A stretch of DNA of 64,000 nt from NCBI RefSeq assembly GCF_900240295.1, contig NZ_OEQB01000004.1, positions 186,001 to 250,000 on the forward strand, given 5' to 3'. Under the pieces are notes generated by a model. That model searched no databases and was not told the DNA's origin. It was given only the letters and a program-made list of their open reading frames with translations. Below are positions 2,789-64,000 of the stretch, piece after piece; within the stretch, counting starts at the first letter, position 1; every line of letters starts with the position of its first letter. The translations under genes and the position numbers were made by a program. The stretch is from Megasphaera vaginalis (ex Bordigoni et al. 2020) (GTDB lineage: Bacteria > Bacillota > Negativicutes > Veillonellales > Megasphaeraceae).

Positions 2789-3970
2789 ATGCCTAAACGT
2801 TGGATTATGCATGTGGATATGGATGCGTTTTATGCTTCTGTAGAGCAGCGCGACAACCCTGCTCTGCGCGGATTACCGGTTATTGTCGGCGGCCTGACGG
2901 ACCGCGGCGTCGTAGCGACGGCTTCTTATGAGGCCAGAGCCTGCGGCGTTCATTCGGCGCTGAGTATGAAGGTCGCGCGGCAGCGCTGTCCGAACGGCGT
3001 ATTTCTGCCTGTTCGCATGTCGCACTACCGGCGCATATCGCATCAAATACGCCTTATCTTCTCACAGTATTCGCCGTATATCGAACCCTTGTCGCTAGAT
3101 GAGGCTTTTTTGGATATTTCGGGAATGGAAGGGCATTATACGGTTGTCACGGATCTCGGCAAGGCAATCAAGGCGGATATTTTGCGGGAAACGGGATTAG
3201 TGGCTTCCGTCGGCATCGGGCCCAACAAATTTTTGGCGAAGCTGGCATCGGACTTGGAAAAACCTGACGGACTGGTTCTGATCGGTTACGGTGAAGAGCA
3301 GAAACGGCTGGCGCCGTTGCCGGTGCGCAGACTTTGGGGCGTCGGCAAGGTTACGGCCGCTGCGTTGGAACGTGCCGGTTACCGTCACATCGGCGATATC
3401 GCCGCCGTCGGCCCGACTGCGCTGGAGCGTACCGTCGGCAAGCAGGCGCGGCGTATTTACGAGTTGGCTTGCGGCATTGACGACCGCCCGCTGTCGGTGC
3501 ACCGCCGGCCGCAATCTGTCGGCAGCGAGCACACCTATCCGCACGATCTGCAGACGCGCCGTGAAGCGGACGAACAGTTCCGCATCTTGGCGAATGAAGT
3601 TTCCTGGCGATTGCGCCGGAATCACCTTATGGGGCGAACGATAACGATCAAGGTCCGGTTTGCGTCGTTTCGGACCGTGACGCGGTCGTTGACGCTGGAT
3701 ACGATGGGGACTTGCGCGGAAGCGCAGTTGTATTTTGCGGCCAAACGGCTTTTTACCAGAGATCTGGCGTTTGAGCCGATACGGCTTTTAGGGCTGACGG
3801 TCAGTCAATTGCAGCCGCTGCAAATACAGGGCGATCTTTTTTCTGACGATGCGGAAACACAGGAAAAGGTGACGGCGGCGATCGACAGACTGCAGGAACG
3901 GTTCGGCAGACAAGCGATCATGAAGGGGTTTCTTTGGGAATTATCACAAGATAGAGAGACGAGAAAATAA
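2789..3970 (+). CDS. dinB: DNA polymerase IV (Y-family translesion polymerase)
   Basis: Error-prone Y-family polymerase that copies past DNA lesions. The first catalytic motif (HVDMDAFYASVE, residues 8-19) and the second (SLDEAFLDISG, about 103-113) give the three metal-binding acidic residues. The helix-hairpin-helix thumb region (RRLWGVGKVTAAAL) and a little-finger domain follow. Near residue 350 QGDLF matches the sliding-clamp binding motif. Length 393 is typical. A good -10 (TATAAT, 2754-2759) precedes it, with a weak -35. No clear LexA box was seen upstream. Start ATG 2789 follows GAAAGAGAGG. Confidence 0.95.
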   Translation: MPKRWIMHVDMDAFYASVEQRDNPALRGLPVIVGGLTDRGVVATASYEARACGVHSALSMKVARQRCPNGVFLPVRMSHYRRISHQIRLIFSQYSPYIEPLSLDEAFLDISGMEGHYTVVTDLGKAIKADILRETGLVASVGIGPNKFLAKLASDLEKPDGLVLIGYGEEQKRLAPLPVRRLWGVGKVTAAALERAGYRHIGDIAAVGPTALERTVGKQARRIYELACGIDDRPLSVHRRPQSVGSEHTYPHDLQTRREADEQFRILANEVSWRLRRNHLMGRTITIKVRFASFRTVTRSLTLDTMGTCAEAQLYFAAKRLFTRDLAFEPIRLLGLTVSQLQPLQIQGDLFSDDAETQEKVTAAIDRLQERFGRQAIMKGFLWELSQDRETRK

Positions 3971-4000: not shown

Positions 4001-4288
4001 ATGGCCATATACAAAATAGCTGCGCATACGGGAACGAATGATAACGGGTATATTCAATACGATGCAGATACACGGACCGTACAGGTTCATCTTTGTAATG
4101 ACGAGATCAACCGAAAGGTTTACGAGTACCTGACGACCTGCCAGACGCTTCACAACTATGTCGATCTGTCTTTTTTCGAGACGATCAAAGAACGGCCTGT
4201 CGCCAGTTGGGAAACGATGCGATTGGCGCTGGCGAAGGTCTGGATGGAACTGGGTGTGCATATTGATTGGAGCCGCAAGGTAGATTGA
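4001..4288 (+). CDS. Conserved-looking small protein of unknown function (95 aa)
   Basis: Not recognised. A strong AAGGAGG sits 8-9 bases before the ATG, and the gene starts 30 bp after dinB in the same direction, so it is probably co-transcribed with dinB. The product is soluble, mixed alpha/beta by composition, with no signal peptide, cysteine pair or membrane segment. The C-terminal part (ASWETMRLALAKVWMELGVH) looks helical. Codon use matches the neighbours. A role tied to the polymerase is possible but rests on position only. Confidence 0.7.
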   Translation: MAIYKIAAHTGTNDNGYIQYDADTRTVQVHLCNDEINRKVYEYLTTCQTLHNYVDLSFFETIKERPVASWETMRLALAKVWMELGVHIDWSRKVD

Positions 4289-4310: not shown

Positions 4311-4644
4311 TTATGCACAAATTACACACAATCTTGGCGCCTGTCTGTGTATAGGCTTTAAATGCCCTGTTTTTCGCCGCTTTTTCTCCTTCTTTTCGAG
4401 ACGAGATACCGCTTAAATTGTGGATAACTCAGATATCTCCAGGCGGAAAGAGCCGTGGCTTATCTCCTGCTATTCGCATATTGGAGAGGATAAGGCGGAA
4501 TCTTGACGGAAGGCGAAACGGCTGTGTACAGGTGTTGTGATTTTGTGTATAAGTTATCCTGAAAAGGGTAAATTTTGTGTGAAGAATTGTACAAATGGCG
4601 TAATTACGCCATTTTTTACAGCTGTTTTGAGCCGGTTGTCCACA
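4311..4644 (+). other. Cluster of DnaA-box-like 9-mers in a non-coding stretch
   Basis: The 408 bases between the small protein and the brnQ promoter hold three exact matches to TTATNCACA: TTATGCACA (4311-4319, plus), TTATCCACA (4419-4427, minus) and TTATACACA (4544-4552, minus). Three more have one mismatch: TTACACACA (4322-4330), CTATACACA (4346-4354, minus) and TTGTCCACA (4636-4644). Such density fits a DnaA-binding region: an origin, or a DnaA titration or reactivation site. No dnaA or dnaN lies in the window, though rpsF-ssb-rpsR, often origin-proximal in Bacillota, is 7 kb away. Motifs are seen; the role is inferred. Confidence 0.5.
4593..4614 (+). repeat. Perfect 22-bp palindrome with T tail
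   Basis: AAATGGCGTAA and its complement meet without a spacer, and the plus strand continues with a short T run (4612-4617 overall). It could be a terminator for upstream plus-strand transcription or a structural element inside the DnaA-box region. Confidence 0.5.
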
Positions 4645-4696: not shown

Positions 4697-4725
4697 TTGA
4701 CGGGGGAGCATTTTCGGTATATAGT
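4697..4725 (+). promoter_or_regulatory. Promoter of the SAM-riboswitch/brnQ transcript
   Basis: TTGACG (4697-4702) and TATAGT (4720-4725) with a 17-bp spacer. Transcription would start near 4732, just before the riboswitch. Confidence 0.75.
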
Positions 4726-4744
4726 GAAGAAGTCTCATTACAAT

Positions 4745-4846
4745 ATGCATCTAGAGCAGCTGAGGGACTGGCCCGACGACGCTGCGGCAACCTTCCGGAA
4801 GGAAAGGTGCCAATTCCAGCGCCACGGCGATGGCGACAGATGACAA
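4745..4846 (+). promoter_or_regulatory. SAM-I (S-box) riboswitch aptamer
   Basis: The conserved S-box core is present in order: AGAG, GAGGGACTGGCCC, a GACGACGC turn, GCGGCAACC, a variable P3 hairpin (TTCCGGAAGGAA) and GGTGCCAATTCC. P1 closes with CATCT (4748-4752) against AGATG (4838-4842). The 3' P1 strand GATGAC (4839-4844) can instead pair with GTCATC (4865-4870) in the following terminator, giving the usual antiterminator switch. When SAM is bound, P1 forms and transcription stops. Control by methionine supply is established for this RNA class; here it governs the BrnQ-type carrier. Confidence 0.92.
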
Positions 4847-4860
4847 TAGGGGTTTTGCAG

Positions 4861-4892
4861 GTGCGTCATCGTTATGATGACGCATTTTTTTG
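4861..4892 (+). terminator. Riboswitch-controlled intrinsic terminator
   Basis: TGCGTCATC (4862-4870), a five-base loop and GATGACGCA (4876-4884), followed by seven T. It lies between the S-box aptamer and the brnQ start codon, and shares its 5' arm with the predicted antiterminator. Confidence 0.9.
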
Positions 4893-4919
4893 TGCAATCA
4901 TTCGTTAGGGGGAATCGTC

Positions 4920-6153
4920 ATGATTGAAACGAAAACACTTGCCGGCCGAACGGTGCGGCTACGAGACGTTTTTATTCTCGGATTTGCTTTTTTTGCGACG
5001 TACTTCGGCGCCGGCAATCTTATTTTTCCGCCGCAGTTGGGCTTGAGCAGCGGGACCGCTTTTCTTCCGGCACTGCTCGGGCTGTCCTTGTCAGGCATTC
5101 TGTTGCCTGTGTTTGCGCTTCTGGTTATTAACCGGTGCGGTGATGTGCGGCGTCTTACGGCACATGTCGGCAAGCACACGTATCATATCTTATTAACGTT
5201 GCTGATGATTATCTGTACCTTTGTTTCCATTCCGCGGACTTGCGCGACGGCCGTTCAGCTTGGCGTACAGGGGAATTTTCCCGATCTGCCTTTTACTGCC
5301 GGCGTGCTGATTTATTTTGCCGTCGCCTATTTTTTTACCTTTGATGAAGGCAGCGTTTTTGATAAGATGGGCAAATATTTGACTCCGATATTGGCGTTGA
5401 TCCTCATTGTTGTCGGTGCGGCTGGCATCTTTTTTCCCTTGGGGACGCCGGCAGATCCCGTTGTGGAGAATGCTTTTGTCAATGCTTTCTTGGGCGGATA
5501 TAATACCGGTGACGTTCTGGTCAGCTTCATCATGGCTTCCTTGTTTATCGGTGCCGTCGAGGCCAAGGGGTATACGACGCGGAAATCGCGCAATGAAGCG
5601 ATGGTGTTGTGCGGCCTGATTACGGTTATTCTGCTTCTGGTTATTTATGGCAGTCTTCTTTATATGGGGGCCTGTGTCAGCGGAGATTACGAACAGTCCA
5701 TTGGCCGTGCCGCGTTACTTGTCGCCATTATTCAGCGCGCTGTCGGCGGGAAGGGTGTCGTATCGTTTTTTCGTTATCGTGACGGCGGCGGTATCGGCGG
5801 CAACGGCGCTTTTGGGCGTTGACGGCATCGTTACGTATATCGGGTGGATCTACAGCATTTCCTATCCGCCCGTACTGGCATTAATGGTCTTGGGGACGTT
5901 TGCCAAGGTCATTCCCAATGACGGCGCGTATAGAGGGGCGACCTATTTGGTCGTTATCTATGCGTTGCTTGAAGCGTTTCCGGGCCTTAGCGGCATGGCA
6001 GCCGCTAAGGTCATTGTGGCGGTCACGCCGTTGTCGTCTTACGGCTTTGGCTGGATCACGCCCTTTCTCATCGGCTTTGTCGGCGGCGCTGTGTGGGGAC
6101 ACGTGCGCCGCGAAACGGCAATCGGTCCGGAAAATGAAAAAGCCATCTCATAA
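4920..6153 (+). pseudogene. brnQ: BrnQ-family branched-chain amino acid/methionine carrier, frameshifted
   Basis: The start ATG 4920 follows AGGGGG. The first part (to about 5765) has the family signature FFATYFGAGNLIFPPQLG and the early TM helices. The remainder continues in the +1 frame (SAATALLGVDGIVTYIGWIY to the stop at 6153). Moving from one frame to the other needs one base removed, most simply from the T6 run at 5766-5771. Joined, they give about 410 residues, normal for BrnQ. As written, translation stops at 5822 and the last helices are lost. The S-box upstream argues that the substrate is methionine rather than, or as well as, Leu/Ile/Val. A real mutation or a sequencing indel are equally possible. 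Confidence 0.8.
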
Positions 6154-48015: not shown

Positions 48016-49149
48016 ATGATTTTAACATCGGAACAGCAGGATATTCGTCATATTGCAGCAGAAATTTCTGAAAAGATACTTGCCCCGCAGGCAGCTTATT
48101 ATGATGAAACAGAAGAATTCCCTTGGGAAAATATCCGCCAATTAAGTCAAGCCGGCTTTATGGGCATGCTTGTACCAGAGATTTATGGCGGTTCCGAACT
48201 TAACACGGTAGCCAGTATGGTCGCTTTAGAAGAAATTTCTAAGGCGTGTGCGGCAACTGGGGCGATTGTAGCTGTACATAATGCTGCAGGTATTCTGCCT
48301 ATTCTAAATTTTGGAACGGACGAACAAAGAAAGAAATATTTGCCAAAGTTGGCAAGGGGTGAAATGATAGGGGCTTTTGCCTTGACCGAACCGGGAGCCG
48401 GCTCTGATGCGGCTAAGGTCATGACTACGGCAACAAACGATGGAGATGAATATATTTTAAACGGAAATAAATGCTTTATCAGCAATGGTGGTGTGGCTGG
48501 GACATTTGTCATTTTTGCCTCTAAGGATAAATCCAAAGGAGTTAAGGGATTGTCCGCATTTATTGTAGAAAAAGGGACTCCTGGATTTAGTATTGGTAAG
48601 CATGAAAAGAAAATGGGTATCAGAGCTTCATCTACAGTTGAATTAGTTTTTGATAATTGTCGGATTCCAAAAGGCAACCAATTAGGGAAAGACGGAGAAG
48701 GGTTTAAAATTGCTATGGCTACTTTAGATACTGCTCGCATTGGTATTGCAGCGCAGGCAGTCGGTATTGCGGAAGCTGCTTATGAAATGGCGAAGGACTA
48801 TTCGAAAGTGCGCGAACAGTTTGGAAAACCCATATGTGCCAATCAAGTAATTGCATTTACCTTAGCAGATATGGCTATTCAGATTGAAGCGGCCAGACAA
48901 TTGACCTACCATGCGGCAGCACTAAAAGACAGCGGTCAATCCTATGGAAAAGAAGCGGCCATGGCTAAAACGTTTGCATCAGATAGGGCTGTACAAATTG
49001 CTTTAGATGCTATTCAAATTATGGGAGGATACGGGTATTCCAGAGAATATTCGGCTGAACGACTCCTGCGTGATGCTAAAATTACGCAGATTTATGAAGG
49101 AACGAACCAAATCCAACGGTTAGTTATCAGCAGACAAATATTGAAATAA
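48016..49149 (+). CDS. Acyl-CoA dehydrogenase
   Basis: 377 residues, FAD-dependent. FAD-binding FALTEPGAGSDAA and FISNGG in the middle, the arginine-containing YSKVREQFGKPI, and the catalytic Glu in IYEGTNQIQRLVISR near the C-terminus. The length and position of the base fit the short-chain/branched-chain enzymes. It would form an enoyl-CoA from the acid activated by the preceding CoA-transferase. No electron-transfer flavoprotein gene is in the window. Confidence 0.95.
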   Translation: MILTSEQQDIRHIAAEISEKILAPQAAYYDETEEFPWENIRQLSQAGFMGMLVPEIYGGSELNTVASMVALEEISKACAATGAIVAVHNAAGILPILNFGTDEQRKKYLPKLARGEMIGAFALTEPGAGSDAAKVMTTATNDGDEYILNGNKCFISNGGVAGTFVIFASKDKSKGVKGLSAFIVEKGTPGFSIGKHEKKMGIRASSTVELVFDNCRIPKGNQLGKDGEGFKIAMATLDTARIGIAAQAVGIAEAAYEMAKDYSKVREQFGKPICANQVIAFTLADMAIQIEAARQLTYHAAALKDSGQSYGKEAAMAKTFASDRAVQIALDAIQIMGGYGYSREYSAERLLRDAKITQIYEGTNQIQRLVISRQILK

Positions 49150-49161
49150 GGTGGGATAATG

Positions 49162-50049
49162 ATGAGTAAGGTTAATCTGGGAGAAATATTAATTGGAAAA
49201 AAAATGGAACCGAGATATTTGGAATACAATTGGCGTGATATTGTGTTATATGCGTTGGCAGTCGGAGCAAAACGGGAAGATCTGTCATATACGTATGAAA
49301 AAAATTTGAAAGCCTTGCCGACATACGGAACGATACCGTATTGGGGGACGGTCAATGTTCGGCCGTATCAGTGGATGCCGCTGCCGGGATCGATGATTGC
49401 CAATGATATTATCAAACCGACTATTTCCTTTTTAAATATGGATCACGAAATTATTATGCATCGTCCTATTGATGCGATTAAAGGAACTTTTCAATGGCAA
49501 GATGAAATTACCGATGTTTATGATCGTGGAGAAGGAAAAGGTGCTGTCGTTAAGACCAAAGTGGTTGTACGAGATGAAGCTGGTAACGATGTGTGCACAA
49601 ATTATTCGACCACATTTTTCCATGAGGCCGGCGGGTTTGGCGGCAAGCCAATGCCGAAGAGCGCTGTTGTTATTCCTGATAGAGAACCGGATATTGAAGT
49701 TGATGATTATATCAGCCCTGTGCAGAATTTACTCTATCGGTTAACCGGAGACACGAATTTGGTCCATGTTGATCCTGACTATGCGCAGAAGATGGGGTTT
49801 GAAACTTCGTTCATGCAGGGGCTTTGTTCGTTTGGTTTTTCTTGTCGCAATTTGATAGCACAACTTATCCCGGGGCAGCCGGAAAGGATGAGTCGTATGG
49901 CAGCGCAAATGACAAGTGTCCTTTTTCCTGACACTCCGGTAGCTGTCCGTATTTGGCGAATAGAAGAAGGGAAAGTGTATTTTCGATTTATCAACAAGAT
50001 GACAGGAAGAGCTGTTTTAGATCGTGGCGTTTTTGAATATACGGAATAA
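49162..50049 (+). CDS. MaoC-like enoyl-CoA hydratase 2
   Basis: 295 residues, two hot-dog domains. The second has the hydratase-2 motif with catalytic Asp and His in LTGDTNLVHVDPDYAQKMGF, followed by QGLCSFGFSCR. It would add water to the enoyl-CoA from the dehydrogenase, giving a (3R)-hydroxyacyl-CoA. Two ATGs in tandem (49159, 49162); the second has better spacing to GGTGGG. Last gene of the four-gene operon, 12 bp after the dehydrogenase. Confidence 0.8.
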   Translation: MSKVNLGEILIGKKMEPRYLEYNWRDIVLYALAVGAKREDLSYTYEKNLKALPTYGTIPYWGTVNVRPYQWMPLPGSMIANDIIKPTISFLNMDHEIIMHRPIDAIKGTFQWQDEITDVYDRGEGKGAVVKTKVVVRDEAGNDVCTNYSTTFFHEAGGFGGKPMPKSAVVIPDREPDIEVDDYISPVQNLLYRLTGDTNLVHVDPDYAQKMGFETSFMQGLCSFGFSCRNLIAQLIPGQPERMSRMAAQMTSVLFPDTPVAVRIWRIEEGKVYFRFINKMTGRAVLDRGVFEYTE

Positions 50050-50071
50050 ATATATTTACAAATTGTCGGTT

Positions 50072-50128
50072 AAACAATAATAAGTACAGGGAGAGGTATC
50101 TTGCTGCTTCCTGTACTTATTATTGTTT
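50072..50128. terminator. Long hairpin after the hydratase gene
   Basis: 19-bp perfect arms (AAACAATAATAAGTACAGG and complement) around a 19-base loop. Interrupted T run; likely ends the carboxylate operon. Confidence 0.7.
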
Positions 50129-50215
50129 GGATTTCAGCGATAAATTTGAATCGTGTACGTGTAATTGAACAATGATATAATTGTACTATAAACATGAAGA
50201 GGGGAGCATTGTTGT

Positions 50216-51688
50216 ATGAACGATACTGTCTATGCGAAAACCTTAAAAAGAATTGTTCTTTTTGCACAAATCAAATATGGACTATTGGCAGAAACCATTG
50301 GCTATGATGTTTCTTATATAAGTAAGTGGATTACGGGTGCTCGTCTGCCTGCAGCAAAAAATATGGATGTAATACACCAGGATATAGGGAAATTTTTGGC
50401 GGAAATCTTTATTAAGGAACACAGAGAAAAAGAGTTTTGCCATACATTTGGCCTTCCGGAAATTTCTTTTTCTGAAGAACTATCTTTTCAAATTGCGCAG
50501 ATACTGTGCCGGGCATATAGAGTATCCGTGCGCGTTAAACAACCATTGGGAAATAATGCTGCAGCTATTTCTGAATTTATTTTTGGAAAATCAGATTGCC
50601 AGAAAGTGTTGCATAATTTATTAGTCTCCCTAGAAGATAATCTTGCTCCCTTGTCAATGGTAATTACTGGGGAGCTTTGCAATTTGGGAAAAAATCATTT
50701 TTGGCAACAGATCCGTAATCTGAATATAAAAAAGCAGCGTTGCACTATTCATGTGGGTTTGGATTTGCAATTGTTGGAACAGAGGACAGCAACGCAGGTA
50801 GAAGTCCTGTATACATGCTTAGATAGTTTATTAAACTGCAATTTTTATATTCATGAAGGCACCTTTAAAGCGTATCAAAATATTATTGTCGTAGAAGATA
50901 GATTTGCTTTGGCATATTGGCTTGATGGCGATGGTTATATAGACGTCTGTATGGAGATTACCGATGCCGTACAAGTGCGTGCCTTTTATAATAAATGTAA
51001 GGCATATTTAATGACTTGTCCTGTTCTTATCCTGCCAAAAGATACCTTGGGTATGGAACGGTTTGGGTATAGAGATACGTTTTTTACATCACAGCGGTTT
51101 TTCTATTTTTTGACAAACGGATTCGAATTTCTTTTACCGGATGAGGTTTTTATATCTCTATCTGAAAAAGTGAGAAGCGGAGAAGTGCCTGCGGTAACGG
51201 AAGAGTGGGTACGGCGTATTTTTATTACATGGAAGAAGCTAATGGATAAAGCGGAGTTAAAGTTTATACTACCGACTAATACTATTATCAGATATTTAGA
51301 AACAGGATATATTCATCTTACCGATTTGTCATATAAGCTGTCAAAAGAGGAACGGCGTCTTCATTTAGAACAGATACTTAAAGTGATGCAGGAGAATCCG
51401 AAAATCTCTCTTGGTTTTATTGTTCCGACAAGTGGTCTCAGTTATACGGAGAATATATGCAACCTTTCTTTTTATTCAAACTATTCAACCGCTTTTTTTA
51501 AGAAAAATCTTCAAGCTATTGTAAGTGGCGTTGCGCCGATTTATTTAATAGAAAATCCGATCTTGATTCAATGTTTTCATAAATTTTTTGAAGGATTGAA
51601 ACAACTTCCCTGTTACAAAGAATATTCAGCAGAAGAACTTCAACGATTATATGACAGATATCAATATTTATTAGATTTTTTAAACTGA
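50216..51688 (+). CDS. Large HTH protein with unassigned C-terminal region
   Basis: 490 residues. The first 60 contain an XRE-like HTH (LLAETIGYDVSYISKWITGA). The remaining 430 match no family recognised here; they are mixed alpha/beta with many aromatic residues and no TM segment. AT-rich like the operon before it. It starts 88 bp after the hairpin that ends the carboxylate operon and in the same direction, so it may be the cluster's regulator. ATG 50216 has GAGGGGAGC upstream. Function is unknown apart from likely DNA binding. Confidence 0.72.
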   Translation: MNDTVYAKTLKRIVLFAQIKYGLLAETIGYDVSYISKWITGARLPAAKNMDVIHQDIGKFLAEIFIKEHREKEFCHTFGLPEISFSEELSFQIAQILCRAYRVSVRVKQPLGNNAAAISEFIFGKSDCQKVLHNLLVSLEDNLAPLSMVITGELCNLGKNHFWQQIRNLNIKKQRCTIHVGLDLQLLEQRTATQVEVLYTCLDSLLNCNFYIHEGTFKAYQNIIVVEDRFALAYWLDGDGYIDVCMEITDAVQVRAFYNKCKAYLMTCPVLILPKDTLGMERFGYRDTFFTSQRFFYFLTNGFEFLLPDEVFISLSEKVRSGEVPAVTEEWVRRIFITWKKLMDKAELKFILPTNTIIRYLETGYIHLTDLSYKLSKEERRLHLEQILKVMQENPKISLGFIVPTSGLSYTENICNLSFYSNYSTAFFKKNLQAIVSGVAPIYLIENPILIQCFHKFFEGLKQLPCYKEYSAEELQRLYDRYQYLLDFLN

Positions 51689-51964
51689 AATCGTATGCAA
51701 CTATATTACTGACAATATAAACAGCGTCCGTGCCGTTGCTCTTGACTCAAGGATATAGCGATAAAACTTTAACTGCACCCAAATCGCCGGATAACCTTTA
51801 GGTTCAAACGATAATAGACAAATCTACCTGAGAAAAGACAGATATAAACAAGAAAAATTATGATCGACCGTGTTCAATGGAGCAAGAGGAAATAATCTTG
51901 CTGTTAAACGCAAACTACACAGCAATTAAAACTCATTAAAATAATTTGGCAGGGAGAATGATCG

Positions 51965-52039
51965 GATCCGCAGATCACGGAACGGATCATCGCCTTCTTG
52001 CAGAAGCATCTGGGCAGTTTTGCTCTTCGCGGTCAATGA
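51965..52039 (+). pseudogene. 3' remnant of a native gene (25 codons)
   Basis: Within the 400-bp gene-free stretch 51689-52088, a GC-rich frame reads DPQITERIIAFLQKHLGSF... and stops at 52037-52039; a TGA sits just upstream (51959-51961 region). The amphipathic helix is like the C-terminal end of an alpha/beta hydrolase or similar. Codon use matches the 52-57 kb genes, not the AT-rich DNA to its left. I read it as the tail of a gene cut off when the AT-rich segment arrived. The rest of the stretch holds nothing recognised except a TGGTATAAT extended -10 at 52047-52055. Confidence 0.4.
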
Positions 52040-57860: not shown

Positions 57861-58032
57861 GTGTTTCTGCAGCATGGAGAAGAATGGGAATAAAAATGGC
57901 CATATCCCCTGTAATGTAAAAATATCGATTTACGTTTTTTACTCTTTGAGTATTGAAAACAGTTCTCATGTAAAAAGTTTTGACGAAAATTTTCTGTCAG
58001 GGGATTTTTTGACAATATTCATATGGGATATT

Positions 58033-58914
58033 TTAAATTTTGAAATCTTTCAGATACTCTGATAAAAGATCTAGTGCTCGTTTTGTGCTGGGGCGAGGGG
58101 ACTTATGAGTAATTATATAGGCTGTCAGATTTTTAGGGGGCTCATCTAGTAAGGCATAGGTGAAGTTGCCTGATTTTATGGCGCGTTGGGCAAGCCATAA
58201 GGGCGCAATTGCCCAGCGGTCCGTATCCTGCAAGAGTTGCAAGAGTAAAGGTGATCCTGTCAGCATTGTCGGAGATGTAAAAATGTCAGAAGGCCAATGG
58301 TCATCATGCCATGCCTTGAATTCGGGTGTCCAAGGAACATATATTTCTGATTTTGTGTTTAAACGATTGTTTTTTACTAAAATACGACCGGCTGTTTTGG
58401 GAGACCCGGATTTCAATAAAACCATAGGTGTTTGTTTCCACGGAATACACTTTATATTGGGATATTTCATATTGCGCCAAACGACAGCAATATCTATCAT
58501 GCGTTGGTCTACGCGAGGATACAATTCTGTAGTGTGTTCGGTATGAATTTCCAGGTGAATAGTCGGTTCATGCAAGAAAAGCTGGTGGAATAATGTAGGG
58601 AAAATAAAATCATTAAGTAATTGTACTGATCCAAAGGATAGGTGGAGACTTTCACCGGCTTTCTTAAAATGAGCCATTTCTATTGTGAGAGATTCCCAAC
58701 GTCTTGCAATAGGCATGAAATCCTCTCCCGAAGGTGTTAGGGTAATTTCTTTTATGCCTCTGCCTCGCTCAAACAGTGTTAGTCCCAATTCATTTTCCAA
58801 ATTTTGGAGTCTATGAGTTATTGCTGTTTGGGTAATAAATAGGTTTTCTGCAGCACGGCTCATATTGCGGGTTTGTGCAATAGCTAAGAAAGCTTGGATG
58901 TCGTGTATGTGCAT
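58033..58914 (-). CDS. LysR-family regulator of the RraA/amidohydrolase cluster
   Basis: 293 residues: HTH at 1-60 (RNMSRAAENLFITQTAITHRL), effector domain from about 90. AT-rich codon use, like the divergent cluster it faces. The 174-bp gap contains an imperfect repeat ATAACA...TGTTAT (59013-59045) that suits a LysR operator. It likely controls the cluster in response to its substrate. Confidence 0.88.
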   Translation of the reverse strand: MHIHDIQAFLAIAQTRNMSRAAENLFITQTAITHRLQNLENELGLTLFERGRGIKEITLTPSGEDFMPIARRWESLTIEMAHFKKAGESLHLSFGSVQLLNDFIFPTLFHQLFLHEPTIHLEIHTEHTTELYPRVDQRMIDIAVVWRNMKYPNIKCIPWKQTPMVLLKSGSPKTAGRILVKNNRLNTKSEIYVPWTPEFKAWHDDHWPSDIFTSPTMLTGSPLLLQLLQDTDRWAIAPLWLAQRAIKSGNFTYALLDEPPKNLTAYIITHKSPRPSTKRALDLLSEYLKDFKI

Positions 58915-59088
58915 GTATTCACCTTCTAAATATGAAAAATATTGATAATAAAATAATTATATATTCATTTTACCGCACAAACAAGGTGATGTAGAATAAC
59001 AACAAGTAATTAATAACATGATGAATGCGCAATCACTATTGTTATATTACCTGTTGTTTTATATTAAATATTTATGGGAGGGGTTAAA

Positions 59089-59769
59089 ATGAATAATGTT
59101 GGGTGTAAAATTGTTGAAAATTTTGAAAGACCGTCGAAGGAACTGGTAAATTTATTTCAAGGAATGCCGGTTGCCAATATTGATGATTGTATGAATCGTA
59201 CGGCTGCTGTGCGCTCTGATATATCCCCGTTAAACCATGCACCGTTATTAGGGACTGCTTTTACCGTTAAAGTTCCAGAAGGAGATAATTTGATGTTCCA
59301 CGCTGCGATGGATATGGCAAAACCGGGGGATGTCATCGTTATTGATGCCGGAGGAGATGCTAATCGGGCTATTTTTGGCGAATTAATGATCACCTATTGC
59401 AAAAAAAGAGGACTGGCCGGCGTTATTGTGGATGGCGCTATTCGTGATGCAGGCGAAATAGCAGAAATGGACTTTCCTGTATATGCCAAAGGGGTAACGC
59501 CTAACGGCCCATATAAAAATGGCCCCGGTGAAATTAACACAGTGATTTCCTTTGGAGGGAAGGTAGTTTGTCCCGGCGATATTATTGTAGGAGATGCAGA
59601 CGGCATCATTGTAATTAAGCCGGAAGAAGCAGAAGAAGTTGCTGCGGCTACTAGAAAAGTCATGGAAAAAGAAGCGGGGATTATGAAACATATTACTGAA
59701 GATGGTACGTATATCCGTCCTTGGGTAGCCGATAAGTTAAAAGAAATAGGTGCTGAGATCGTAAAATAG
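59089..59769 (+). CDS. RraA/HMG-aldolase family protein
   Basis: 226 residues from ATG 59089 (GGGAGGGG upstream). The swivelling beta/alpha fold has GTAFTVKVPEGDN, and the metal/substrate motif VDGAIRDAGEI keeps the Arg-Asp...Glu (RDxxE) pattern of active 4-hydroxy-4-methyl-2-oxoglutarate/oxaloacetate aldolases. A catabolic context rather than an RNase E one also favours aldolase over RraA function. It would split a 4-hydroxy-2-oxo-dicarboxylate to pyruvate and a second oxo acid. Substrate inferred. Confidence 0.82.
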   Translation: MNNVGCKIVENFERPSKELVNLFQGMPVANIDDCMNRTAAVRSDISPLNHAPLLGTAFTVKVPEGDNLMFHAAMDMAKPGDVIVIDAGGDANRAIFGELMITYCKKRGLAGVIVDGAIRDAGEIAEMDFPVYAKGVTPNGPYKNGPGEINTVISFGGKVVCPGDIIVGDADGIIVIKPEEAEEVAAATRKVMEKEAGIMKHITEDGTYIRPWVADKLKEIGAEIVK

Positions 59770-59795
59770 ATTTAAGAGATAAGGAGTAGGTTGTC

Positions 59796-60683
59796 ATGAA
59801 ATTAGGATTTATTGGTTTCGGTGAAGTTGGATATGAAATTAGTAAAGGGCTCACTGATGAGGGATTAAAAGAAATATATGCATATGATGTGATGCAGAAT
59901 GATGCTGAGAAAGGCCATTTTGTTTTTGAGCGGGCCCATGCTGTCGGTGTTCAGCTTCTTAATTCGGGAACAGATGTAGTAGATATGTGCGATATTATTA
60001 TGATGGTAGTTCCCGGAACATTTGCTCTAAAGACGACGGAAGGATTGTTGCCATCAGTAACGAGGGAAAAAATCCTTGTCGATTTATCGACTAGCTTGCC
60101 AAGCGTTAAAAAAAGAGAAAGCCAATTAGTTAGTAAACGTGGCGGTAATTTTATTGATGGGGCATTGATGGCCAGTCTTAGTCAGGCTCACTATAAAGTT
60201 CCTGTTTTAGTTTCCGGTGCGAAGTGCAATCCTTTTATTGATGCACTGGTGCCTTATGGAATGAATATTAAAGCAATTACCGATAAACCGGGTGATGCCA
60301 TTGCCATCAAATTTGTTCGTAGTATTTATATGAAAGGGATTGCTGCATTAGGTGCGGAAATGCTTGAAGCAGCGCATGTATTAGGCGTTGAAAAGTCCGT
60401 TATCGAATCCATCGGTACGACTTTAGATGGTAAGAGTTTTGATTTTAATAATGATTATCTTGTTGTGGCCAGTGCTTGGCACGGAGCAAGGCAAGCCCAT
60501 GAAATGAGCGATGTCAAAAAAATGCTCGAAGATATCGGCGTAGATCCCATTATGACGAATGCTACGGAAAAACGTTTGGAATGGTTTCGTGATTTGGGGG
60601 CGCATGAGTATTTCCACGAAGAAAGACCGGATCATTGGCACGATATAGCTGTTTTGTGGGATAAAGCGCGAAGCAATGATTAA
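59796..60683 (+). CDS. NAD(P)-dependent beta-hydroxyacid-type dehydrogenase (DUF1932)
   Basis: 295 residues. Rossmann start MKLGFIGFGEVGYEISKGL, the conserved FIDGALMASL region, Lys in AIKFVRSIYMKG, and a DUF1932 C-terminal helical domain (ERLEWFRDLGAHEYF). These relate to 6-phosphogluconate and 3-hydroxyisobutyrate dehydrogenases. It would oxidise a hydroxy acid in the same pathway as the aldolase. ATG 59796 has AAGGAGT, 26 bp after the aldolase gene. Confidence 0.82.
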   Translation: MKLGFIGFGEVGYEISKGLTDEGLKEIYAYDVMQNDAEKGHFVFERAHAVGVQLLNSGTDVVDMCDIIMMVVPGTFALKTTEGLLPSVTREKILVDLSTSLPSVKKRESQLVSKRGGNFIDGALMASLSQAHYKVPVLVSGAKCNPFIDALVPYGMNIKAITDKPGDAIAIKFVRSIYMKGIAALGAEMLEAAHVLGVEKSVIESIGTTLDGKSFDFNNDYLVVASAWHGARQAHEMSDVKKMLEDIGVDPIMTNATEKRLEWFRDLGAHEYFHEERPDHWHDIAVLWDKARSND

Positions 60684-60710
60684 AATACTACTAAAGGGAG
60701 GATTATAATT

Positions 60711-62006
60711 ATGAAAGCATCTAAATTTAGATATTGGATCATATTTATGGTTCTGTTAATAATGACGATTAATTATATTGATAGAGGTGCATTGGCCTAT
60801 GCTCAACAAGATATTATTAGGGAATTTGGATTAAATTCATCTCAATGGGGAAGCATACAGGGATTCTTTGGATATGGATATATTTTTGGTGGTCTCTTTG
60901 GGGGGATTCTTGCTGATAAAAAGGGCCCTCGTTTCGTCTGGATTGTATTTGTAACAATTTGGTCAGTATTCGTTGCTATGACTGCCTATGCAGGTGAATT
61001 AGGGATGAGTCTTTTTGGCGGTTCAGCTATGGCGGGCTTCTTTGTTGTTAGAACTATGTTCGGTTTTTCAGAAGGGCCGTCCTTTGTCTCTATGAGTCGT
61101 ACTTTAGCTAATTGGGTAGCGCCAGGAGAAAGAACATTTACTTCTTCAATTACGTTGATAGGAACTCCTTTAGGATCTGTTATTACTGCTCCGGTAGCAG
61201 TGTTTTTGATTTCCTTCTTCAATTGGAGAACTGCATTTCTGATTTTAGGGGGCTTGGGAGTGATTTGGGTTTTATTGTTCTCGAGGATTTTCACAAACTT
61301 ACCAGAAGAAAATATTCGAGTCAATAAAGAAGAAATAAAACTGATACGGTCCGGAGTGGATAATGATGTAGTTGCATCAGAAAAGGAAAAACAGCAATCT
61401 CATTGGTATGATTTCTTTAAAAATCCAGCGTATTTATTCAATACTGTCGGCTTTTTCGCAATAAGTTATATTATTTTTATGTTGCTCACATGGACGCCGA
61501 AGTATTTGCAAGATGTATATGGAATGAGTCTTAAATCATTGTGGTATTTAGGGATGATACCTTGGATTGGACCTATTTTTTCTACACCATTAGGCGGAAG
61601 AATTGCTGATTTCATTTTTAAAAAGACTGGAAATCTCAGAATAGCAAGAAATAGCGTTGCGATGGCTTCATTGCTTCTTTCGGGAGCTTCCTTTATTTGT
61701 ATTCCTTTTGCGGGAAGTATGACCGCAGTTCTAACTTTGATGGCATTGGGAAATACAGCTGCGCTTGCCTCCAATTCTATTTATTGGAGTAATTTGATTG
61801 ATATTGACCCAACTAGGACGGGCGCTTTTGGTGGAATTATGCATTTTTTGGGACAAACAGCAGCTATGTTAGCGCCTACTATTACAGGGATAATGGTCAC
61901 AACTTATGGATATAATGCCGGATTTGTATTAGCGGGGACAATTTGTTTGTTAGGAGTCATTAGTGCATATTTTGTAACATTCCATCATAAACATGCATCT
62001 ATATAA
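60711..62006 (+). CDS. MFS transporter, anion:cation symporter type
   Basis: 431 residues with 12 TM helices. The start WIIFMVLLIMTINYIDRGALAYA and the GPSFVSMSRTLANWV motif are those of the ACS branch, which carries hexuronates, glucarate, tartrate, phthalate and similar organic anions. It is placed in the middle of the cluster and would import the substrate. ATG 60711 has GGGAGGATT. Confidence 0.9.
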   Translation: MKASKFRYWIIFMVLLIMTINYIDRGALAYAQQDIIREFGLNSSQWGSIQGFFGYGYIFGGLFGGILADKKGPRFVWIVFVTIWSVFVAMTAYAGELGMSLFGGSAMAGFFVVRTMFGFSEGPSFVSMSRTLANWVAPGERTFTSSITLIGTPLGSVITAPVAVFLISFFNWRTAFLILGGLGVIWVLLFSRIFTNLPEENIRVNKEEIKLIRSGVDNDVVASEKEKQQSHWYDFFKNPAYLFNTVGFFAISYIIFMLLTWTPKYLQDVYGMSLKSLWYLGMIPWIGPIFSTPLGGRIADFIFKKTGNLRIARNSVAMASLLLSGASFICIPFAGSMTAVLTLMALGNTAALASNSIYWSNLIDIDPTRTGAFGGIMHFLGQTAAMLAPTITGIMVTTYGYNAGFVLAGTICLLGVISAYFVTFHHKHASI

Positions 62007-62018
62007 GGGGGGAAGCAT

Positions 62019-63149
62019 ATGTATGACTTGGTAATTAAAGATGCCATTATTATTGATCCGGAAAATGAGCAAATTACCCAAGGCTCAATGGCCATTAAAG
62101 GTAATGAAATAGTTCCTTATGAAGATAATGAGCCTTCTAAGAATATAATTAATGCTGCCGGAAAATATGTATCGCCAGGATTTATAGATTTTCATACGCA
62201 TGTATATAGTGGGAGTATGTATGGGATAAATCCAGATTTATTATTCCCTTATGGCGTAACTACCGTAGTTGATCAAGGTACGGTAGGGTATATTAATTTT
62301 GATAGTTTCTATAATGAGACATTCTCTAGATTGATGAAAACTTATATGTTTATTAATGTGTTTCCTATGGGGCAGCCTGGGGGAAACATGCCAGAAATAT
62401 TAAATCCATCTCTATTGCATTTAGAGAAAATTAGCCATTTGTTACATAACCACAAAGAACTTATTAAGGGAATAAAGATTAAATACATCCATAATACTAT
62501 AGGAGAATTTGGGGCAATTCCCTTGAAAATGGCACTGGATTTTGGTCATGAAGTGGGGGTTCCGGTGTGTGTGCATACGACAGATTCGCCGGCAAGTGCC
62601 AGTGATATTTTGGCATTATTGCGCGCTGATGATATATATTGTCATTGCTTCCAGGGGCATGGAAATACTATATTGAACCAGAACGGGAGTGTGCCTGAGG
62701 AAATATTTGATGCTCAACAAAGAGGCGTAATATTGGATGCGGCGAATGGATGTATTAATTTTGATTATACGGTAGCAATGAAAGCATTTGAATGCGGATT
62801 TGAACCCGATGTTATTAGTACGGATTTAACAAGTAAAGGGTTTAATGTTCCGGGAGCAGCTATGGCAAGAAATTTAGCGTTCATTATGTCGAAATACTTG
62901 AATATTGGTATGAGTATAGAAAAAATAATTAAGGCAGTTACGTTTACACCTGCAAGAATTATGGGATTAGAGGATTATATTGGGACGATAAAGATAGGAA
63001 GTAATGCTGATCTTTGTTTGTTTGAAATATGTAACTTACCACATTCATTTTTGGATGCGAATAATATTGAAAGAATCGGCTATCAATACATTAAGGCTGA
63101 AGCAACAATTGTAGATGGGGAAATCGTTTATCTAGGAGCTGAGTTATAA
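62019..63149 (+). CDS. Metal-dependent amidohydrolase
   Basis: 376 residues, amidohydrolase superfamily. Metal-site residues are visible: HTH in FIDFHTHVYSG, a likely carboxylated Lys in GIKIKYIHN, His in VCVHTTDSP and HCFQGHGN, and Asp in VISTDLTSKG. The start DLVIKDAIIIDPEN and the late GTIKIGSNADLCLFE are typical. It may open a cyclic amide, imide or lactone before aldol cleavage. The EF_0837/AHA_3915-like group is the nearest recognised. ATG 62019 has AAGGGGGGAA, 12 bp after the transporter. Confidence 0.85.
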   Translation: MYDLVIKDAIIIDPENEQITQGSMAIKGNEIVPYEDNEPSKNIINAAGKYVSPGFIDFHTHVYSGSMYGINPDLLFPYGVTTVVDQGTVGYINFDSFYNETFSRLMKTYMFINVFPMGQPGGNMPEILNPSLLHLEKISHLLHNHKELIKGIKIKYIHNTIGEFGAIPLKMALDFGHEVGVPVCVHTTDSPASASDILALLRADDIYCHCFQGHGNTILNQNGSVPEEIFDAQQRGVILDAANGCINFDYTVAMKAFECGFEPDVISTDLTSKGFNVPGAAMARNLAFIMSKYLNIGMSIEKIIKAVTFTPARIMGLEDYIGTIKIGSNADLCLFEICNLPHSFLDANNIERIGYQYIKAEATIVDGEIVYLGAEL

Positions 63150-63198
63150 GGAATAATAAATTAAAATTAAGGATTTATTATTAAATTGTTTAAATTTT

Positions 63199-63236
63199 GA
63201 CTGAGGGTTAGTACATTACAGCCCTCAGTCTTTTAT
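63199..63236 (+). terminator. Terminator of the amidohydrolase operon
   Basis: GACTGAGGG (63199-63207) pairs with CCCTCAGTC (63222-63230), followed by TTTTATCTT. Between here and 63435 the DNA is AT-rich and shows nothing recognisable. Confidence 0.8.
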
Positions 63237-63435
63237 CTTAACAACATAAGTGATATAAAAAATTATATATTGCTATTGCGATATAAGTAAGGGTGATTTA
63301 GTTTGTTCGCCGAATATTTTACTCATGGAATTCTAGATTAAAGCTACTTAGAAGAACTTATGTTTAAACTCAAAATATTAGATATAGGCAAGTTTATATC
63401 TATAAAGAATATCAAAATAAAAAAATACATATAAA

Positions 63436-63474
63436 ATAAAAAGACTGAGTCTAGTGGATTGCTATACTCAGTCT
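63436..63474 (-). terminator. Terminator of the nicotinamidase-like gene
   Basis: AGACTGAGT (63442-63450) and ACTCAGTCT (63466-63474); on the minus strand a TTTTTATTTT tail follows. The stem shares GACTGAG with the terminator at 63199. Confidence 0.75.
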
Positions 63475-63534
63475 AAAGATGTTTTAAATAATTTATCTAG
63501 TCCATTGGGATGAATTGAGCATTCGCCTTCTGTT

Positions 63535-64000
63535 CTATACAATATCGATATGGCACGCTGCCATTGATTGCAGGGCCCGTTCATGGTCTTCCGGCGAGGA
63601 ACCGGCGCAGCAGGAGCTGTCGACGCTGATTTTCTTTTCCGGATAGAAGGCTTTGAGCAGGAGCGCGTTGGAAATAACGCAGATGTCGGTACAGACGCCC
63701 ATTACGGTAATTTCGTCATAGGGGGCCGCTTCGCCGACCAGATCGGTGCAGCCGAAGGTCGGTTTTTGCAGGATCGTGGCAAAGAGCGAGTAAGGCAGCA
63801 GTTCCCGGCAAATGTTCCAGCCCGGCGTGTTGCGGATACAGTGCGGTACCGGCAGTTTCCGGCCTTCCTGGGTGAACAGGTAATCTTCATCGTGCGTGTC
63901 TTTGGTAAAGAGGATATCGTAATCACTGGCGCCGCTTCGTTTCAGGTCTTGAATCTTGGCGGCGATTTTCGGGGCGACAGCTTTGGCTTCCGCCGTGCCG
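63535..64000 (-). CDS. Isochorismatase/nicotinamidase-family cysteine hydrolase, 5' end missing
   Basis: 155 codons to a TAG at 63537-63535; the start lies beyond the window. Visible features: the Asp-containing FTKDTHDEDYL with LPVPHCIRNTPGW (metal-binding region) and the catalytic Cys in VMGVCTDICVISNALLL. The arrangement fits nicotinamidase or a close relative, which turns nicotinamide into nicotinate for NAD salvage. The N-terminal catalytic Asp segment is off the edge. GC-rich codon use shows that native-type DNA resumes after the AT-rich cluster. Confidence 0.85.
   Translation of the reverse strand, partial: GTAEAKAVAPKIAAKIQDLKRSGASDYDILFTKDTHDEDYLFTQEGRKLPVPHCIRNTPGWNICRELLPYSLFATILQKPTFGCTDLVGEAAPYDEITVMGVCTDICVISNALLLKAFYPEKKISVDSSCCAGSSPEDHERALQSMAACHIDIV

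Follow-up and report, generated by a model that had tools for sequence, protein, structure and literature searches.

What is a dense group of DnaA boxes doing in non-coding DNA well away from dnaA? The window, that is the whole stretch of DNA analysed here, is 64 kb long (C4:186001-250000 of its genome), and the cluster lies at 190 kb of contig C4. Its features are listed in Table 1. The first-pass annotation had described three exact and three one-mismatch boxes on both strands of 334 bp of non-coding DNA, with a 22-bp palindrome among them. The box listing agrees on the exact boxes and on the use of both strands, and the stretch is indeed non-coding and lies between the end of ORF95 and a SAM riboswitch. 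The one-mismatch boxes are also present, although there are four of them rather than three. The palindrome was found inside the cluster, and matches its own reverse strand at 100%.

Table 1. Features of the cluster and its surroundings (positions are those of the window).
Feature	Position	Strand	Description
DnaA-box cluster (whole element)	4311..4644	.	3 exact and 4 one-mismatch TTATNCACA boxes in 334 bp
Box B1	4311..4319	+	TTATGCACA, exact, first of tandem pair
Box B2	4322..4330	+	TTACACACA, 1 mismatch, head to tail, 11 bp after B1
Box B3	4346..4354	-	CTATACACA, 1 mismatch, facing B2, 24 bp on
Box B4	4419..4427	-	TTATCCACA, exact, 73 bp after B3
Box B5	4544..4552	-	TTATACACA, exact
Box	4578..4586	-	TTCTTCACA, 1 mismatch, weakly supported; relatives without clear counterpart
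Box B7	4636..4644	+	TTGTCCACA, 1 mismatch, closing box of opposite direction
22-bp palindrome	4593..4614	.	one copy of 16-bp dyad, consensus TGGCATAATTATGCCA; hairpin on both strands
dinB (DNA polymerase IV)	2789..3970	+	upstream neighbour in 17/17 family genomes
ORF95	4001..4288	+	uncharacterised 95-aa protein, neighbour staying with cluster
Promoter-like site	4697-4725		between cluster and riboswitch, starts 53 bp past cluster
SAM riboswitch	4744..4846	+	of downstream brnQ-like gene, outside cluster

The density of boxes is a local property. Boxes with at most one mismatch are not enriched in the window overall (48 found against 43 expected), and the whole genome has 57 exact boxes compared with 51 for a reversed control pattern, which is barely an excess. 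Exact boxes were searched genome-wide, and the scan for one-mismatch boxes covered 1.83 of the 2.21 Mb. At the rates found in the scanned 1.83 Mb, a stretch of 334 bp would be expected to contain 0.009 exact boxes and 0.23 with one mismatch, and the probability of at least three exact boxes is about 1e-7, uncorrected for the choice of place. In the same scan the cluster is the top-scoring 350-bp window, with a score of 13, while the best window for any of 60 permuted consensus patterns scored 9. The second and third ranks (scores 11 and 8) are the two gaps around dnaA, and rank 4 is a contig end (G000:C1:453-679) with two exact boxes and one one-mismatch box.

A box score above that of either gap around dnaA is what might be expected if the cluster were a replication origin, or the distant half of a bipartite one. 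The other evidence points elsewhere. The first-pass annotation placed the cluster away from dnaA, and this is correct: dnaA is at 75.3 kb of C4, about 115 kb from the cluster or 5.2% of the genome. The cumulative GC skew of C4 has its minimum at 75 kb, which is at dnaA and not at the cluster (this holds for contig C4, the other contigs being unordered). The same turn at dnaA is seen in G014, while the skew of G002 is too noisy to read. Near dnaA of the window's genome there are two further groups of DnaA boxes and a run of DnaA-trios, the latter in the dnaA-dnaN gap.

The window's family, f1, has 17 genomes, and the dnaA locus was read in 14 of them (dnaA was not found in G013, and G015 and G016 were left out). 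In each of the 14 the dnaA-dnaN gap contains DnaA boxes. A strict trio run occurs in 4 of these 14 loci and in none of the 17 clusters. With a relaxed rule, chosen after the sequences had been inspected, the trio score is at least 4 in 13 of the 14 loci (G005 has 3) and does not exceed 3 in any of the 17 clusters. Thus, boxes beside an unwinding element with DnaA-trios were not found at any of the family's clusters. The distance from ORF95 to dnaA is variable, which also argues against a bipartite origin. The proposal that the cluster is oriC itself is rejected on the skew and on the boxes and trio run at the dnaA locus, and a second origin part, the other form of this idea in the annotation, finds no support, given that the skew turns at dnaA and the 17 homologous clusters have no trio run. 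We conclude that an origin function of either kind is extremely unlikely.

The variation in distance deserves a closer description. ORF95 is 11-379 kb from dnaA, or 0.6-8.7% of the genome, in 25 genomes that have both on one contig; the cluster was seen in 23 of these and not seen in G035 and G036, and several of the genome sizes are rounded. In G009 and G014, ORF95 is on the opposite side of dnaA compared with the window. As controls, genomes that have ORF95 but lack the cluster have it at 8.5-25% from dnaA (six genomes of family f14) and 10% (G063, family f7). However, in genus g12 of the sister family f4, which also lacks the cluster, ORF95 is 2.0-5.4% from dnaA (six genomes, rounded sizes). 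Nearness to dnaA is therefore weak evidence for a function of the cluster, and may simply reflect the synteny of ORF95 itself.

ORF95 is present in all 17 family genomes, with a broken reading frame in G003, and in all 17 it is followed by a box cluster. Together the family clusters, 7.1 kb in all, contain 63 exact boxes and 95 with one mismatch. For comparison, the dinB-side flanks have 0 exact and 22 one-mismatch boxes in 25.5 kb, and those on the other side have 1 and 12, respectively, in 16.2 kb. The 420-bp counting frame was shifted to follow a later start of the cluster in G003 (by 190 bp) and in G004 (by 70 bp). A DNA search with the cluster in the genus matched only 1 of 15 genomes, the window's own, which means that the spacers are not conserved; the boxes do align. 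The usual layout is two head-to-tail boxes 11 bp apart, followed by a facing box 34-35 bp on in most of the family and 24 bp on in the window. An inverted box comes about 72-78 bp further, then more inverted boxes and a closing box. Some boxes are degenerate, for example in G005, G008, G011, and G014. The first-pass annotation asked about conservation in relatives, and named a distant skew inversion together with poorly conserved boxes as evidence against its reading. The inversion is distant, being at dnaA, but the boxes are not poorly conserved: the cluster is at the same place throughout the family, and also occurs beyond the genus.

A motif search with 13 masked clusters identified a 16-bp dyad between the boxes in most of the family, and the palindrome in the window is one copy of it. 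When the sites of the genome under test are excluded from the matrix (for G006, G007, and G010, those of a near relative), no more than 1 of 100 shuffles equals the best dyad match in 14 of the 17 genomes. The copy in the window is the top match in the scanned 1.83 Mb, in this case with its own site in the matrix. A generic inverted-repeat search gave nothing clear. The palindrome was considered as a terminator and rejected: it is absent from the terminator scan, and the related dyads have no constant T-run.

This additional dyad may bind an accessory protein, and could be taken to mean that the boxes are maintained for positioning the chromosome or for a different DNA-binding protein, and that DnaA is not what mainly binds them. 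This is quite improbable. The 9-bp boxes match DnaA sites, the dinB-side flank holds a better dyad match than the cluster in 4 of the 17 family genomes, and the dyad was not seen in the clusters of f4 (the one moderate match there, in G060, is not among the boxes).

ORF95 was found in 211 of the 260 genomes sampled from the class Negativicutes. It matches no Pfam or NCBIfam family at E 0.001, with only weak, scattered Pfam matches, and a single match to a solved chain has E 0.91. The structure prediction was confident (pLDDT 92), but Foldseek gave no match at E 0.001 or better, and the best VIA Z was 3.5 over 58 residues. The surroundings of ORF95 vary. Comparing the longest ORF on the downstream side between 48 loci gave 31 groups with no resemblance to one another at E 1e-8, and on the upstream side the longest ORFs, from 51 loci, form 10 groups. 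These neighbours were picked by length, and some are perhaps not genes, such as that in G004, which has nagB on the other strand. It is concluded that ORF95 and the cluster form the stable pair.

The neighbours bear on the idea that the cluster is a transcriptional control region, through which DnaA would regulate the SAM riboswitch/brnQ unit, or ORF95 and dinB. DnaA also acts as a transcription factor in B. subtilis, as stated in part of one report (PMC4447404), and a promoter-like site starts shortly after the cluster, although one such site was found where 1.1 were expected. Against this, the downstream ORFs change between loci as described, and some run towards the cluster, which moreover is mostly at the 3' end of ORF95 and not in front of it. 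Such a role is therefore not likely. The brnQ-like gene 3' of the riboswitch is itself split over two frames (ORFs 4890-5822 and 5647-6153), from either a pseudogene or a sequencing error. Elsewhere in the window, 49000-52000 and 58000-64000 are AT-rich (GC 36-40%, against mostly 45-58% in the rest) with a strong positive GC skew, and have possibly been acquired.

Outside the window's family, the sister family f4 was first taken as a whole to lack the cluster. This was wrong, and is true of genus g12 only, in which 13 of 13 loci have ORF95 and no cluster, with 0 exact boxes in 5.5 kb; in a 14th genome, G040, ORF95 was not found. In genera g10, g11, and g13 the cluster is present in 12 of 14 loci among the matches listed, and in the other two (G035 and G036) the contig ends 142 and 206 bp after ORF95. 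Writing the core as the distance between the tandem boxes and then that to the facing box, four g11 loci have 11/12, while g13 has 11/15 in 6 of 7 loci read forward and in 7 of 7 read from the other strand. In G033 no core was found on the forward strand, and the matches on the reverse strand are weak. Six of the 14 sister-family loci (L215, L216, L219, L222, L224, and L226) were scanned for tRNAs, and in each of these six a tRNA-Arg(CCT) gene follows the cluster. E. coli datA is described as lying downstream of a tRNA operon (PMC10380432).

For the rest of the class, 40 loci were chosen before inspection, from listed places, to represent 20 families outside f1 and f4. Fourteen of them are from f14 and four from f18, and the ORF95-bearing families f9, f11, f12, f19, f30, f34, and f35 are outside the sample. 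ORF95 was not found in f2 and f3 (16 genomes). A common core emerges, in which a box is followed by a second box 12 bp on and a facing box 22 bp further (12/22). Allowing at most 2 mismatches in 24 positions, this core occurs in 20 of the 40 loci, representing 16 of the 20 families, and every other spacing is found in at most three loci. There are no 12/22 cores in 125 kb of flanks, nor in 200 Markov shuffles. The loci with ORF95 but no core are all 14 from f14, all four from f18, and those of f7 and f25.

In 19 of the 20 core loci there is an inverted box 44, 53-55, 62-65, or 75-79 bp past the facing box, distances that can be read as steps of about one helical turn; other boxes are elsewhere. 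The core is not always directly adjacent to ORF95, being about 760 bp (G076) and 920 bp (G091) after it with a possible ORF between, and in G079 it overlaps the end of the ORF95 open frame. L264 (G061) and L272 (G076) have the core twice, as if duplicated. It is also found after the ORF95 of a distant metagenome-assembled genome, CTSoil_082 (L263), whose ORF95 is 32-33% identical. The arrangements in the window (11/24) and in the sister genera (11/12 and 11/15) are variants of the same core. That the spacing stays the same in 16 families is a hint of a complex with a defined shape, as opposed to a simple sponge for DnaA, and the constancy of the core suggests something more than titration, as far as can be judged from sequence.

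The oriC regions of the same bacteria share the box consensus and modules of tandem plus facing boxes. Among 34 dnaA loci, a comparison confined to f1 and f4, such modules have spacings of 11/11 in 10, 11/12 in six, and 12/13 in six, so that the 11/12 of the g11 clusters is shared with many of them. The differences are that 12/22 occurs at only one of the 34, and that the clusters have no trio run.

DARS sites in E. coli stimulate the release of ADP from DnaA. The E. coli DARS core and the core described here have the same topology, with a tandem pair spaced by about 12 bp and a single box facing it. This raises the possibility that the cluster is a reactivating site of this kind, in which DnaA bound at the tandem pair would meet, head to head, DnaA bound at the facing box and lose ADP, raising ATP-DnaA before initiation. 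A constant spacing in 16 families would suit such an allosteric complex. In the bioD-uvrB gap of MG1655, which we take to be DARS1, a box faces a tandem pair at distances of 14 and 12 bp, and the 11/15 of g13 is close to this. Two papers describe the head-to-head pair of DARS as essential and its third box as stimulatory (PMC10380432, PMC8682772).

The three-box topology is present in the window (11/24, with two mismatches in all) and in 20 of the 40 class loci, but it is not diagnostic, in view of the similar modules at the dnaA loci. The DARS1 spacing of 12 and 14 bp was not found in the window or in the common core, where the facing distance is 24 and 22 bp rather than 14, and g13 comes nearest; there are also more boxes here than in DARS1. 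A position near oriC is more like datA, and no DARS2 core could be made out in the E. coli stretch examined. A reactivating site is the leading alternative explanation, but a rather doubtful one.

The interpretation that we favour, and consider somewhat probable, is that the cluster is an origin-proximal site for DnaA assembly that limits re-initiation, rather than an origin. DnaA would build a defined complex on the tandem pair, the facing box and the further inverted boxes. Because its distance from oriC is about 115 kb, or 5% of the genome, the site would be copied soon after initiation, and the doubled site would bind, and perhaps inactivate, DnaA, so that a second initiation is held back. 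The same kind of action has been proposed for datA in E. coli and for the DnaA-box clusters close to oriC in B. subtilis. A cluster that is copied early and holds DnaA, and that has no trio-type unwinding element, should leave less free DnaA after initiation. We infer the DnaA binding, the complex formation and the negative effect, and the negative sign in particular is a guess. Titration or reactivation, the remaining suggestion of the first-pass annotation, fits to the extent that the box content and the place beside ORF95 are conserved beyond the genus; the two are not separable by sequence.

YabA gave no match above the cut-off in any of the 17 family genomes, and one sub-threshold match with stops in G007. 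Bac_DnaA has a single match in the window's genome, which is dnaA itself, with further weak matches in five of the other 14 genus genomes. Cis-acting control of DnaA would therefore fill a gap. In genus g11 (G034-G039) all six genomes searched have a second protein, a 165-aa open frame with a strong Bac_DnaA match of E about 1e-26 (for example G036:C4:146320-146730), which is possibly Hda-like.

There are counter-arguments to a DnaA-assembly site. ORF95 occurs without a cluster in f14, f18, f7, f25, and g12. The core also varies, from 11 with 24 or 34-35 in the window's family to the spacings of g11 and g13, and B2 and B3 in the window carry mismatches. The spacings in f4 and the distances in cluster-less genomes weaken the arguments from a constant core and from nearness to dnaA, and strengthen the likeness of g13 to DARS. 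A more far-reaching version of the assembly site is prompted by the association of ORF95 with the core, which persists across 16 families other than f1 and f4 even as the flanking ORFs change. The two could form a two-part DnaA control module of Negativicutes, in which a stereospecific DnaA complex on early-copied DNA is tuned by ORF95 and replaces control by Hda or YabA. This extension is tentative.

For E. coli, the sites outside the origin that act on DnaA are understood; for B. subtilis this is less so. A study by Okumura et al. in 2012 reportedly concerned oriC-proximal DnaA-box clusters of Bacillus subtilis. Removal of all six of the B. subtilis clusters leads to early initiation, in the accounts given by two reviews (PMC5295017, PMC13220808), although the first of these also has a passage in which the clusters have no significant role (PMC5295017). 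The element described here resembles them, going by the title of the study, in consisting of DnaA boxes outside oriC and near the origin: it has several boxes, above chance expectation, at 5.2% of the genome from oriC in the window's genome. It differs in being tied to ORF95 and in having a core that is shared by 16 of the 20 families examined beyond f1 and f4.

The E. coli datA locus promotes ATP hydrolysis by DnaA, and has an essential IHF site at a set distance from its boxes. The family clusters are similar to datA in being groups of DnaA boxes near oriC, and differ in having a palindromic dyad. Extracts from two sources describe datA as a negative, origin-near DnaA-box site in which spacing matters (PMC4585315, PMC10380432), and one of these also has DARS-like sequences conserved in many proteobacteria (PMC10380432). 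Among the matches listed for open-licence papers there was no DnaA-box cluster outside oriC in Negativicutes, which is a weak negative.

A candidate DnaA site that has one shared geometry and keeps the same neighbouring gene through much of a Bacillota class would be a new example of such sites. It would make the generality of cis-acting DnaA control testable, also where YabA and Hda are missing, and the families that have ORF95 and no cluster are a natural experiment. The recurrence of the cluster beside ORF95 in many families of one class suggests, on the basis of sequence comparison, an undescribed control site for chromosome replication. As a kind, DnaA boxes outside oriC, the cluster would be ordinary beside those of B. 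subtilis and E. coli, and what appears to be new is the depth of its conservation, its common core and its constant neighbour.
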